From positions 124,001-188,000 of the forward strand of contig CANRJY010000002.1 in NCBI GenBank assembly GCA_947631085.1: 64,000 bases of DNA, given 5' to 3'. A model generated the notes under the pieces. The model was not told where the DNA came from. It searched no databases and saw only the letters and a list, made by a program, of their open reading frames with translations. Origin of the DNA: an uncultured Clostridia bacterium. Lineage in GTDB: Bacteria > Bacillota > Clostridia > UBA1381. The position numbers and the translations under genes are program-made. This document shows, piece by piece, positions 7,833 to 17,355 of the stretch (positions are counted from its first letter, which is position 1; every line of letters begins with the position of its first letter).

Positions 7833-8543
7833 TTAAAATTTGTATACTTTTCTCACATTATTGCGCCGTTCCATATCCTTAACGCCTATACAGCCCTCAT
7901 CAGTGGCGATTACATGCTCGATAAGCTTTACGCCCACGTTCGCGAGCGCCTTCTCCACCATATTCGTTACGGAGATGTCCGGTCCGGATGCTTCAAGCCT
8001 GCCGCTCGGGTGATTGTGCGCCAAAACGACTCCCGCCGCATCGCACATTACCGCGTCTCTGACTATGCTTGTAATATTCACGTTTGCGCTTTCAAATCCG
8101 CCCTCGGACATGAGCTTTTCCTTGATTATGCGCCCTTTCGCGTTCAGGCATATCAGATACAAAGCTTCATTTGCCCTGCCGTAAAACAGATTTTTAAAAT
8201 ATTTTATGACGTTGTCCGACTTTAGCTTGGACATATCAGTAACCTCATAGCTATTGCAGTACCGCACGAAAGCCGATAAAATGTCTATGTAATCGCATAC
8301 CTTGTCCCCCACGCCGTCAACCGCTTTCAACTGCTCCCTGGGAGCTGTGAAAACCCTGTCAAGACCACGGCATTCATTTATCAGCTCGTGAGCGATTATG
8401 TTGGTGTTGACTCTCGGAAGCGCGTAGAACAGCAAAAGCTCCAATATTTCATGCTCCTCCATATTTGAGAAATCTTTGTTTTTAAGAAATTTTTTTCTTA
8501 GCTTTTCTCTGTGTCCGGCGTGGACATTTTTAGGCTCAGACAT
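7833..8543 (-). CDS. radC: RadC family protein (UPF0758, JAB/MPN domain)
   Basis: 236 residues. An N-terminal helix-hairpin-helix-like region (LKAVDGVGDKVCDYIDIL) is followed by an MPN/JAMM-type domain with the metal motif AHNHPSG and a downstream S-x-x-D (ASGPDISVT). The JAMM metalloprotease fold suggests hydrolase activity, but its cellular role is not settled; the old link to DNA repair is not supported by later work. The gene stands alone between terminators. The sequence of the fold's active site looks complete. Confidence 0.92.
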   Translation of the reverse strand: MSEPKNVHAGHREKLRKKFLKNKDFSNMEEHEILELLLFYALPRVNTNIIAHELINECRGLDRVFTAPREQLKAVDGVGDKVCDYIDILSAFVRYCNSYEVTDMSKLKSDNVIKYFKNLFYGRANEALYLICLNAKGRIIKEKLMSEGGFESANVNITSIVRDAVMCDAAGVVLAHNHPSGRLEASGPDISVTNMVEKALANVGVKLIEHVIATDEGCIGVKDMERRNNVRKVYKF

Positions 8544-8575
8544 TTAAACACCTCTGTCATTAATTTATTGTGCAA

Positions 8576-8603
8576 AAAAAGCCCGACATAAGCCGGGCTT
8601 TTT
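8576..8603. terminator. Intrinsic terminator
   Basis: Perfect 10-base arms AAAAAGCCCG and CGGGCTTTTT with an 8-base loop. It ends the ABC ATPase gene on the minus strand; the symmetry makes it work on both strands. Confidence 0.9.
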
Positions 8604-8612
8604 GATGGCATA

Positions 8613-9722
8613 TTAGTGAATAATAGCAAGCTCTGTTTCCTTGTCGAATATATGGAGCTTGTTTGTCTCGAACGCAACCTTTATCGTGTCGCCGAGCTTA
8701 GCTGTTGAACGCTGATTTACTCTTGCCGTAAACGGAACGCCCGCGATTGTCAAATACAGATATGTCTCCGCGCCCATCATTTCCGTAACGTCAACGTATG
8801 CCGACGCAACAGCTTCGGGTCTTGACGCGAGGAACGCCTCATCGTCATGGATATCCTCGGGTCTGATACCGAGTACAACAGTCTTGCCTATGTACTTCTT
8901 CAGCTCCGGAGTAACCTTTCCGTCAGGAATTTTAATCGTGTCGTTAGCAAATGTAGCGTATAAGCCGTCTCCTTTTTCCGAAAGAACAGCGTCAACGAAG
9001 TTCATCTGCGGCGAGCCGATAAAGCCTGCTACGAAGATGTTATCGGGCTTTGAATAGAGGTTAGACGGTGTGTCAACCTGCTGGATAACGCCGTCCTTCA
9101 TAACAACGATACGCGTACCCATTGTCATAGCCTCTGTCTGGTCATGCGTTACATAGATGAACGTTGTCTGAAGTCTGTTATGGAGCTTCTTAATCTCGGT
9201 TCTCATCGCAACTCTCAGCTTAGCGTCGAGGTTTGAAAGAGGTTCGTCCATAAGGAATACCTTAGGATTTCTTACGATAGCACGACCCATCGCAACACGC
9301 TGTCTCTGACCGCCCGAAAGAGCCTTCGGCTTTCTGTCGAGAAGATGCTCGATATCGAGGATCTTAGCAGCCTCTGTAACGCGCTTCTTGATCTCATCCT
9401 TCGGAGTCTTTCTCAGCTTCAGACCGAACGCCATGTTCTCAAATACCGTCATATGCGGATACAGAGCGTAGTTCTGGAAAACCATCGCGATATCTCTGTC
9501 CTTCGGAGCAACGTCGTTAACGAGTCTGCCGCCGATGTAGAGTTCGCCGTCCGAAATTTCCTCAAGGCCCGCAACCATTCTCAATGTGGTTGACTTACCG
9601 CAGCCCGAAGGTCCTACCAAGATGATAAATTCCTTGTCTTCGATATCGAGACAGAAGTCGCCTACAGCCGTTACGCCTCCCGGATATCTCTTATAAATGT
9701 GCTTTAATTGTAAATCTGCCAT
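8613..9722 (-). CDS. ugpC: Sugar ABC transporter ATP-binding protein, UgpC/MsmX type
   Basis: 369 residues, the standard length for the shared ATPase of CUT1 carbohydrate importers. Walker A GPSGCGKST at about residue 37, Q-loop FQNYALYPHMTV, signature LSGGQRQRVAMGRA, Walker B VFLMDEPLSNLD and switch VTHDQTEAMTMG are all intact. The C-terminal third is the MalK-like OB/TOBE domain (VLGIRPEDI). It stands alone without permease or binding-protein genes, which is typical of MsmX-type ATPases that serve several oligosaccharide transporters. Here it would logically energise uptake of the sugars released by the secreted lyases at 28-37 kb, an inference from context. Confidence 0.93.
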   Translation of the reverse strand: MADLQLKHIYKRYPGGVTAVGDFCLDIEDKEFIILVGPSGCGKSTTLRMVAGLEEISDGELYIGGRLVNDVAPKDRDIAMVFQNYALYPHMTVFENMAFGLKLRKTPKDEIKKRVTEAAKILDIEHLLDRKPKALSGGQRQRVAMGRAIVRNPKVFLMDEPLSNLDAKLRVAMRTEIKKLHNRLQTTFIYVTHDQTEAMTMGTRIVVMKDGVIQQVDTPSNLYSKPDNIFVAGFIGSPQMNFVDAVLSEKGDGLYATFANDTIKIPDGKVTPELKKYIGKTVVLGIRPEDIHDDEAFLASRPEAVASAYVDVTEMMGAETYLYLTIAGVPFTARVNQRSTAKLGDTIKVAFETNKLHIFDKETELAIIH

Positions 9723-14176: not shown

Positions 14177-14283
14177 CGTTGAATATATCAATTATGTAAG
14201 CATTATTGTACTTTTTCCACTATCGGCATAAATTTACGCAATAAATTTCTACATTTTCTACAAGCAAAATCACTGAATTTATC

Positions 14284-14311
14284 TTGTATTTTCGCTCAAC
14301 TGTGCTATAAT
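14284..14311 (+). promoter_or_regulatory. Probable promoter of the methyltransferase-STAS gene
   Basis: TTGTAT, 16 bases, TATAAT, about 75 bases before the ATG at 14386. The -10 box is perfect; the -35 box is weaker. Confidence 0.55.
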
Positions 14312-14385
14312 AAATTGTAATTAAGAAGTAATTAAAGAAGTAAATACTTTCGGCTAATGAAAATATATAAAAGGAGGCACACAAA

Positions 14386-15633
14386 ATGGAAGAAAAACAA
14401 GATTTAAGAGAACAAACAAATCCGATATACAACACGGCGAAAGCCGTTCTGCTGCATTACTGCATAGCGGGCGATAAGGACGCGCCGGTATTGGCGAAAA
14501 AACTTGGTATAGACGCCGACTCGCTTATCGGAACGGAGGAACAGAAGGTGGCGCTCAGCCTTGAACTGACCTTATTGCTGGAATCGCGTTTCCGCTCAAC
14601 AAACAAAATTGCAGGCAATTATAAAAACAGCACAGTTTTAGACATTCCGTGCGGATATGCGCCGCGGGCGCTATGTGAAACGTTTAGGGATATGCGTTAC
14701 ATAGGCTGCGATTTGCCTATCGTAACGGACGAGATTGCGCCGGTTATCGGTGAAATCTGCGCCGAACGCGGAATAAAGGACACGGAGTACCACAGTGCGG
14801 ACGCGACGAATTACCGTTCGCTTCGTGACGCGCTCAACACGGTTGACGGAGAAATTACCATATTAACCGACGGACTGCTCACATATTTCAGCAACTCCGA
14901 GCTTACCGAGCTTTGCACGAATATCCGCCGTTTGCTCAAGGAGTTCGGCGGTCGATGGATAACGTCCGATCCGGACATGAACCCGCTGTTCATGGCGGCG
15001 CTTAAGGCTGTCCACGGTAAAGCGGCGTTCGAGGATTTGATAAAGACTATGGATGTATACTCCGAGAAGTCGGACACAAACATAGAGGTGCAGAACATGA
15101 CCGTTTTGGCGTACGATTACGAAAACAGCATGAAAACGGTAACGGATTTCCTGCGCTCGGTAGGCTTAAAATGGGAGCGCGTTCCGATGTCTAATTATAT
15201 AACGGAGATCCACAGCCTCGCGGATTATTCCGACGAAGTAAAAATGGATTATATAAAATCGCTTGAAAATGTATACATCTGGATTTTCACGCCCGACGAG
15301 GACTACAAAGAAACAGAGGAAAACTATGATAGCGACAGCTTCGGCGTTAAAGCAAAGGCGCACGGCGGCAAAATGGAGATAACGCTGCGCGGCAGACTCG
15401 ATTCGATAACTGCACCGGAGCTGCTGGGAATTTATGAAAAAACAACGGCTGCGGAAAAGGTTGAAAAAATCGTCGTTGACGCGTCCGAGCTCGAATATAT
15501 TTCGTCGGCGGGACTGCGCGTGCTGCTTATTATGATTAAGCAGGTTGGAAACGGCAATCTCGCCGTCACCGGACAAAACGAAGCGGTTCAGACTATCTTC
15601 GACCAAACGGGATTTGCCGATTTGATAGCATAA
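14386..15633 (+). CDS. SAM-dependent methyltransferase (LCM-like) fused to a STAS domain
   Basis: 415 residues in two parts. Residues about 15-305 form a class I methyltransferase resembling the leucine carboxyl methyltransferase group: the S-adenosylmethionine loop is VLDIPCGYAPRAL, followed by YIGCDLPIV and ITILTDGLLTYFS. Residues about 325-415 are a STAS domain (GGKMEITLRGRLDSITAPEL, VDASELEYISSAGLRVLL) with the Ser-Ser-Ala-Gly pattern where anti-anti-sigma factors such as SpoIIAA are phosphorylated. The STAS part could place the enzyme under a serine kinase/phosphatase switch or dock it to a partner. The ATG has an AAGGAGG site. It has its own promoter and no co-transcribed partner. The methyl acceptor cannot be told. 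Confidence 0.85.
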   Translation: MEEKQDLREQTNPIYNTAKAVLLHYCIAGDKDAPVLAKKLGIDADSLIGTEEQKVALSLELTLLLESRFRSTNKIAGNYKNSTVLDIPCGYAPRALCETFRDMRYIGCDLPIVTDEIAPVIGEICAERGIKDTEYHSADATNYRSLRDALNTVDGEITILTDGLLTYFSNSELTELCTNIRRLLKEFGGRWITSDPDMNPLFMAALKAVHGKAAFEDLIKTMDVYSEKSDTNIEVQNMTVLAYDYENSMKTVTDFLRSVGLKWERVPMSNYITEIHSLADYSDEVKMDYIKSLENVYIWIFTPDEDYKETEENYDSDSFGVKAKAHGGKMEITLRGRLDSITAPELLGIYEKTTAAEKVEKIVVDASELEYISSAGLRVLLIMIKQVGNGNLAVTGQNEAVQTIFDQTGFADLIA

Positions 15634-15699
15634 TTTCCACAGACAAACCAAATATTTAATTATAAAAGCAGGAGTTATAAAATACGATACGCTCTTTTG

Positions 15700-17355
15700 T
15701 TATCTGTATTTTCCGAACAGCTCCGCTACCGTATCATAGGCGATTTTCGGGCGGCGGTACTCGTCTACCACGCCTTTGTTGTTGTGGCAGCGCGCGCGGC
15801 TTTGAAACCAGTCCCCCTCCTCGGTTACGCGACAGTCGGCAAACTGCCACACAAATACGCCGCTTATTCTGTCATCGTTCATATATACTTCAAGATTATC
15901 ACGAATTATATCGGACTGCCCTTCCTCGCTCCATTTGCAGCGCGTTCTGTCGCGGTATCCGTAAATCGCCGCCGCGCCAAGCTCGCTTACTATAACCGGC
16001 TTGTTTTCGCCGCCGGATTTGTATATCCAGTCCAATTCCTCGTTATTTCTTTCGGCTATATCGCAGTCTATATACCAGTTTGAATACATATTAAACGACA
16101 CTATATCGGGCAAATCGAGACAAATATCGGTAAAGTGGCGGCAGGTAGCAGAAGTGGTCGGACGGGTTTTATCCATTGACTTTATCTGCCCGTACTGCTT
16201 TTTATACATTTGCCTGCCCTCGTCCGTTTCCGACGCGCACTCGTTTAAAATGCCCCAGATTATGATTGACGGGTGGTTATAATGATTTTCAATCATTTCG
16301 CGTATGCAGTCCTCGCACTGACGCTCAAAATTCGGATTTTGCATATCCTTTAAGCCGAGCCCGCGCGCGTGATTTTCCTCCCAAACCATTATTCCGCGCT
16401 CGTCGCAAAGGTCGAGAAAGCGCTCGTCGTTCGGGTAGTGACAAGTGCGCACGGCGTTCGCGTTCGCCGCCTGCATCAAGTCCATATCCTGAACCATATG
16501 CTGCACCGATACCGCGCAGCCGTCTACGGCGTAATCCTCGTGGCGGTTGAAGCCTTTCATATATACGGGCTTATCGTTTATAAAAATTTTTGCGTCTCTC
16601 ACCTCGACCGTTCGGAAGCCCACGCGCTCGATCAAATCGTCTGTCGGCACGCCGTTTATGAAAATCTCCGATGTGAGCTCGTACAAATTCGGTTCTCCCA
16701 CGAACCACGGCTTTATGCCGTCAAAATCCTGTTCGAACGCCACGGTCGTCCCCGACGCGGCGGGTATTTCCGCTTCACGCTCCGCTTCTGCGCCTGCGAG
16801 AGCGGTTTTTACCGTAACGGTTTTTGCGGTCTCGGATAAATTTTTTATCATAACCTCGGTTTCGGCGCTCCATTTGCCGTCTTTGAGCGACGGCGTGAAG
16901 CGTATGCGCTCTATGTAAACGTCAGGCAGATACTCAAGCGCTGCCGAACGCGTTATCCCGCCGTATGTGTAATAATCGTTCGGAATATGCAGCGCGCTGC
17001 TCTCGCCAAAGGAATTATCCACATCGACACGCAGCTCATGCGCGCCCTCGTTTACATTTTTCACGACCGCCGAAAACGGCGTGAACGCATTATAGTGATG
17101 CGTTATTTTCTCCCCGTCGAGGTACACGTCCGCGGTATGGCTAACGCCCTTAAATTCAAGGCGGATATTGCCGGATTTTTTTATGTTTATCGTTTTTTTA
17201 TATGTTCCCCGTCCGCGGTAATTGAGCAGATCGGGGTGCTGCTCCCAGCAGGCGGGAACAGGAAGCCTGTAGGTTTTTCCGCCGGCTGTGAAATCCCACA
17301 TTCCGTCAAGCTCCCGCGTTTCTCTTATTTTGTGCGTGTCAAACAAACGAATCAT
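15700..17355 (-). CDS. uidA: Beta-glucuronidase-like glycoside hydrolase family 2
   Basis: 551 residues with the family 2 order: jelly-roll sugar-binding domain (GRGTYKKTINI, FKGVSHTADVYLDG), Ig-like middle domain and a TIM barrel from about residue 270 (YMKGFNRHEDYAVDG, AVRTCHYPNDERFLDLCDERG). The acid/base Glu is in WGILNECAS and the nucleophile Glu in VIVSELGAAAI. Near the C-terminus CHNNKGVVDEYRRPK carries an Asn-x-Lys that lines up with the carboxylate-binding NxK of beta-glucuronidases, favouring a uronic acid substrate over galactose. No signal peptide, so intracellular. It lies 15 bases after apbE with an AGGAGG site. A substrate released from pectin or other uronic acid glycans fits the nearby lyases. 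Confidence 0.85.
   Translation of the reverse strand: MIRLFDTHKIRETRELDGMWDFTAGGKTYRLPVPACWEQHPDLLNYRGRGTYKKTINIKKSGNIRLEFKGVSHTADVYLDGEKITHHYNAFTPFSAVVKNVNEGAHELRVDVDNSFGESSALHIPNDYYTYGGITRSAALEYLPDVYIERIRFTPSLKDGKWSAETEVMIKNLSETAKTVTVKTALAGAEAEREAEIPAASGTTVAFEQDFDGIKPWFVGEPNLYELTSEIFINGVPTDDLIERVGFRTVEVRDAKIFINDKPVYMKGFNRHEDYAVDGCAVSVQHMVQDMDLMQAANANAVRTCHYPNDERFLDLCDERGIMVWEENHARGLGLKDMQNPNFERQCEDCIREMIENHYNHPSIIIWGILNECASETDEGRQMYKKQYGQIKSMDKTRPTTSATCRHFTDICLDLPDIVSFNMYSNWYIDCDIAERNNEELDWIYKSGGENKPVIVSELGAAAIYGYRDRTRCKWSEEGQSDIIRDNLEVYMNDDRISGVFVWQFADCRVTEEGDWFQSRARCHNNKGVVDEYRRPKIAYDTVAELFGKYR

Follow-up and report, generated by a model that had tools for sequence, protein, structure and literature searches.

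STAS domains normally flip stress and sporulation switches upon phosphorylation of a serine, a partner switching for which most known cases involve sigma factors. A gene in the 64,000-nucleotide stretch of DNA from a gut Clostridia bacterium analysed here (hereafter ‘the window’) ends in such a domain, joined to a protein part that resembles the leucine carboxyl methyltransferases (LCM). This raises the question of whether the joined gene is a genuine unit and, if it is, what throws its switch and what the switch controls. The reading we favour, to which we assign roughly an even chance (0.5), is that the LCM-like part is an effector switched by reversible phosphorylation of the STAS serine, written and erased by a 945-aa sensor of which this protein would be one of several outputs. 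Literature searches on STAS fusions and architectures returned no title or abstract that describes an LCM–STAS fusion.

Architecture of the fused protein

The open reading frame (14386-15633, forward strand) starts with ATG and encodes 415 aa; its features are listed in Table 1. The first-pass annotation had read the protein as an LCM-like N-terminal part followed by a STAS domain, and both the assignment and the order are correct by Pfam and NCBIfam, Foldseek and profile–profile evidence. The architecture, an LCM-fold methyltransferase-like part joined to a C-terminal STAS domain with an SSAG serine, is confirmed.

Table 1. Features of the window and of loci elsewhere (locus handles precede the positions of the latter)
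Feature	Position	Strand	Basis or remark
Promoter-like site, TTGTAT-16 bp-TATAAT	14284..14311	+	Sequence reading; predicted
Ribosome-binding site, AGGAGG	14372..14377	+	Sequence reading; conserved among copies
LCM-fold (class I SAM methyltransferase-like) part, residues 1-305 (approximate)	14386..15300	+	Foldseek, profile–profile match, conserved columns
STAS domain, residues 319-414	15340..15627	+	PF01740, TIGR00377, model rmsd to SpoIIAA
S374 codon, predicted phosphoacceptor	15505..15507	+	Alignment with SpoIIAA Ser58
Remnant of terminator hairpin, rearranged in window copy	15667..15700	+	Hairpin closing the unit in near copies
Unit common to near copies at other genomic places	14216..15690	+	Pairwise blastn
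Frameshifted copies at G-rich stretch	L005:8001-8200, L007:6517-6720, L064
945-aa membrane protein with 5TM-LYT, SpoIIE-type PP2C and HATPase_c_2	L132:7704-10541		Adjoins lone STAS
STAS-APH kinase fusion	L132:6104-7279		Same locus as sensor
204-aa protein beside sensor	L132:10564-11178		No Pfam family

The STAS domain is matched by Pfam PF01740 over residues 323-414 (E 1.3e-12) and by STAS_2 (2e-8), and it passes NCBIfam TIGR00377, anti-sigma factor antagonist (59.4 bits versus a cut-off of 53.45). In an AlphaFold model of the whole protein (pLDDT 77), this part lies 1.5 A rmsd from SpoIIAA of the SpoIIAB complex (1tid), and the STAS fold claimed for the C-terminus holds. S374 aligns with Ser58 of Bacillus subtilis SpoIIAA, the residue phosphorylated there, and the positions of the acceptor serine, Asp23 and Gly95 are all filled (S374, D339 and G409). 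The B. subtilis sequence used for numbering agrees with the PDB alignment wherever the two overlap. By this alignment, S374 would be the residue that is phosphorylated. The expectation that the serine is conserved stood for all intact Clostridia copies read and for most Selenomonadaceae; it failed in three Selenomonadaceae genomes of a single genus or clade, in which SSAG has become SRAG (L208, L209 and L210) and arginine takes the acceptor position. Four copies have TSAG, which retains the acceptor.

The N-terminal part of the window sequence matches no Pfam family above cut-off, and Pfam LCM is found below threshold in five of 10 homologues (best E 0.034). Its likeness to LCM proteins rests instead on three observations. 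First, when the model was compared with the PDB by Foldseek, ranks 1-18 were all LCM-fold proteins (PPM1, TYW4, ML2640 and LCMT1), followed by SpoIIAA in complex with SpoIIAB. Second, a profile–profile comparison (hhalign) with canonical bacterial LCM proteins gave a probability of 97% (E 1.1e-10, residues 73-200). Third, an unfused Clostridia relative that matches the profile of the fusion family (E 3.2e-19) itself passes PF04072 LCM (32.4 bits versus a cut-off of 22.3). The family alignment displays the motifs D86-x-x-C89-G90, D109-L-P, D139-A-T-N142 and G163/Y167, and D109, G90, G163 and Y167, which correspond to the acidic and glycine residues of LCM proteins, are invariant. The first glycine of the usual SAM loop varies within the fusion family (Pro, Ala or Gly). 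The window protein therefore shares fold and conserved SAM-site positions with the LCM family (PPM1/LCMT1, TYW4, ML2640, Rv0731c; PF04072), and differs from it in falling under the Pfam cut-off and in bearing a C-terminal STAS domain.

The N-terminal part may be an active methyltransferase. Whether the family at large is catalytic is doubtful, because the unfused Selenomonadaceae relatives have signal-peptide-like N termini, judged by eye, and thus look exported to a location where SAM is not expected. Two unfused LCM-like genes with such starts (L157:1417-2367 and L213:1423-2382) are overlapped by a sodium:dicarboxylate symporter gene (L157:2346-3864; L213:2361-3879), and in L157 the symporter has an N-terminal HATPase-like part (weak match, E 0.022). 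To our knowledge, the substrates of bacterial LCM-family proteins are largely unknown.

The main rival to our reading starts from these same facts. RsbR stressosome proteins have an N-terminal domain and a C-terminal STAS domain, with a threonine phosphorylated by RsbT. The window protein has the same order, and its LCM-like part might be non-catalytic, sensing SAM or a substrate and thereby controlling the STAS domain, just as variable N-terminal sensors do in RsbR. The apparent export of the unfused relatives and the SAM loops that frequently lack the first glycine favour such a sensor; the invariant LCM positions, a methyltransferase-like part constrained as strongly as the STAS part, and the anti-sigma-antagonist type of the NCBIfam class weigh against it. 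RsbR also differs in that its sensor domain is not LCM-like and its acceptor is threonine. We consider the sensor explanation unlikely, at well under even odds, and retain the switched effector as the better account.

Distribution, selection and movement

Members of at least four Clostridia families carry the fusion, as do Selenomonadaceae. A scan of genome contigs yielded 25 distinct loci, all on contigs titled Lapin MAGs, which we read as rabbit gut. Among 391 genomes drawn from the class Clostridia, 12 match the methyltransferase-like part; 11 of these carry it fused (one copy being frameshifted) and are spread over four families (f1, f19, f54 and f57), and the twelfth (G198) has an unfused LCM protein. 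Selenomonas ruminantium TAM6421 has a plasmid-borne fusion of 410 aa (WP_014430897.1), annotated only as a STAS domain-containing protein. In the family of that organism, 39 of 121 genomes match: there are 13 intact full-length fused copies and several with breaks or internal deletions, while unfused relatives of 24-36% identity occur in about two dozen genomes. Fusion-bearing genomes frequently have two copies; the second in the window's own genome is on contig C16 (54% identity).

The first-pass annotation had named random splitting of the two parts among homologues as the case against it. In a tree of 52 STAS rows, the fused domains instead form one old clade (99/97). Its neighbours are the lone STAS proteins encoded at the sensor loci described below (80/75); the STAS domains of STAS-APH proteins and SpoIIAA form separate groups, and the exact positions of the long branches (G378, Selenomonas and G015) are unsure. 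Between copies, the methyltransferase-like part has a dN/dS of 0.08-0.21 and the STAS part one of 0.07-0.20. Judged by these ratios, both domains are under purifying selection and the fusion is a real protein. Chance joining of two genes is excluded by the single fused clade, which spans two classes, together with dN/dS; on the tree, the joined gene is old and common to two bacterial classes.

The gene is found in many unrelated genomic places, and no conserved operon partner was present in the neighbourhoods read. Homology between most copies comprises the gene and 20-230 bp upstream, with unrelated genes on both sides; the few pairs of copies that share context occupy the same site in related genomes. 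Near copies additionally share a terminator hairpin (-12.2 kcal/mol in L004 and -14.3 kcal/mol in L001; z about -4), and by pairwise blastn their shared unit extends beyond the gene by about 170 bp on the upstream side and about 55 bp on the downstream side. The homology of the window copy to these copies stops around 15667..15700, and its hairpin remnant is no better than shuffles. TTGAAT-17-TAAAAT-type sites lie upstream of many other copies. A conserved 120-bp segment upstream of L003, L005, L012 and L021 holds a promoter-like site together with a direct repeat spaced about 21 bp, a possible operator.

The window protein is 95% identical to that of an f19 copy (L004, the same gene as G249), whereas the PP2C–HATPase parts of the sensors of these two genomes are only 65% identical; transfer between families is therefore likely, and the fused gene has likely moved as a single gene. 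Assignment of the f19 contig to its genus follows from its galU region, which is 92% identical in three genus mates, and in one genus mate (G289) the unit is absent next to galU. For the window locus, a genome of the window's own genus (G001) has the neighbouring beta-glucuronidase-like gene and lacks the unit, but its flanking context differs and it therefore does not provide a clean empty site. No transposase accompanying the unit was seen in the loci read. A defence role was set aside since the protein has no PADLOC match, as was phage or viral carriage, there being no phage record and no confirmed viral contig.

Movement of this kind suits a second alternative, that a single-gene unit is spreading and decaying in gut Clostridia for some other benefit, STAS phosphorylation now being unimportant. 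Homology that ends at the unit's borders, the many contexts, and broken and internally deleted copies all fit. One internally deleted copy is at the galU site of G820; in L023 (1662-2270) an internal deletion has removed the middle, including SSAG, and in L166 (1195-1878) the first half of the methyltransferase-like part is joined directly to an intact STAS domain. Against decay stand a dN/dS of about 0.1 in both domains and retention of the serine in nearly all intact copies, and we regard this alternative as improbable, more so than the sensor explanation.

A candidate kinase and phosphatase

The first-pass annotation had suggested looking near homologues for RsbW/SpoIIAB-like kinase or PP2C genes. 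No such kinase gene adjoins the fusion at any of the loci read. The sole PP2C-like gene near any copy, judged by eye in those loci, belongs to a hydrogenase cluster of L002 and lies 2.7 kb downstream. A cognate kinase gene next to a STAS gene is usual, though not strictly required.

Contig C7 of the window's own genome (L132) holds together a STAS-APH fusion, a lone STAS protein, the 945-aa sensor and a 204-aa protein. The model of the last (pLDDT 68) has a weak fold likeness to SpoIIAB and SiaB (best E 2.4e-3). STAS-APH-type kinase fusions are also found at L133:5665-6885 and at L135:6066-7265 and 8240-9415, beside a tyrosine-phosphatase-like gene in both loci (Pfam Y_phosphatase3 in L133, by resemblance in L135).

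We took the equivalents of SpoIIAA residues 18-30, 50-66 and 89-98, our own choice, as the presumed docking face. In these segments the window STAS domain matches the lone STAS protein of its own genome at 30/40 positions, and elsewhere at 10/55; with the SpoIIAA of the same genome it agrees at 11/40 and 11/61, respectively. The match is support, not proof, because these segments are the best conserved across STAS domains generally. The genome does hold SpoIIAA, SpoIIAB and SpoIIE genes, and the sporulation pair SpoIIAB/SpoIIE might be the partner instead of the sensor, but the tree, which sets the fusion apart from SpoIIAA, and the poor match of the docking segments make this very improbable.

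Sensor and fusion tend to occur together. A close sensor is present in seven of the 11 fused genomes and in 16 of all 391 genomes in the sample (Fisher test, 1e-8 when counted by genome and 0.002 by genus; relatedness uncorrected). An intact fusion occurs in one genome without a close sensor (G267), and the four Selenomonadaceae genomes tested have fused proteins and only more distant PP2C/HATPase proteins. The state of the gene differs as well: in Clostridia genomes without a close sensor (G029, G422, G378 and G267), four of six copies are broken, by frameshifts (G029 and G422), an internal stop (G029) and a truncated STAS domain (G378), versus none of 12 full-length copies in genomes with a sensor (that of G015 being more distant). 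The comparison (P 0.005) is post hoc and uncorrected for relatedness, and frameshifts in MAGs may be assembly errors. One G-rich stretch, near codon 50, is the site of two frameshifts in copies from two families, perhaps through slippage or assembly error.

We infer that the kinase part of the sensor acts on the STAS domain of the window protein. In the mechanism we propose, the HATPase (RsbW-like) domain of the membrane sensor would be the writer and its PP2C (SpoIIE-like) domain the eraser; the phosphorylation state of the STAS serine would gate the methyltransferase-like part, setting its activity or its binding of a partner; and the STAS-APH kinases would be another of the STAS-tethered outputs. 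This mechanism is favoured by the tree, in which the fused clade neighbours the lone STAS proteins from sensor loci, by the docking match and co-occurrence, and by the broken copies where the sensor is missing, serine retention in intact Clostridia copies and purifying selection. It is weakened by the lack of an adjacent kinase, by G267, by the distant Selenomonadaceae proteins and the SRAG clade, and by the uncertain catalysis of the wider family and the variable first glycine. More tentatively, and at somewhat less than even odds, the sensor may control enzymes directly through a set of fused STAS domains (methyltransferase and APH-type kinase), with the methyltransferase output travelling between families as a single-gene unit.

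Relation to known switches

The window protein shares the STAS fold and the position of the phosphoacceptor serine with SpoIIAA and RsbV, which are served by SpoIIAB/RsbW kinases and SpoIIE/RsbU PP2C phosphatases; kinases and phosphatases of these types are also present in its own genome. Unlike SpoIIAA and RsbV, its STAS domain is fused to an LCM-fold domain and has no known sigma factor output, and the candidate kinase and phosphatase are non-adjacent and joined in one membrane protein. In the SiaABCD system of Pseudomonas aeruginosa, a PP2C, the SiaB kinase and a partner-switch protein directly control an enzyme. Direct control of an enzyme would be alike, and the 204-aa protein beside the sensor weakly matches the SpoIIAB/SiaB fold, but the SiaABCD output is a diguanylate cyclase that is a separate protein. 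The nearest described logic is that of Vibrio fischeri, in which a single protein, SypE, both Ser kinase and phosphatase, controls the downstream STAS protein SypA (PMC10120452); SypA is a lone STAS domain without a fused enzyme.

A conserved enzyme–STAS fusion would show that a phospho-switch can gate an enzyme within the same chain. The fusion gives a ready test of this, with candidate kinase, STAS domain and enzyme all defined, and it offers a handle on the bacterial LCM-family proteins.
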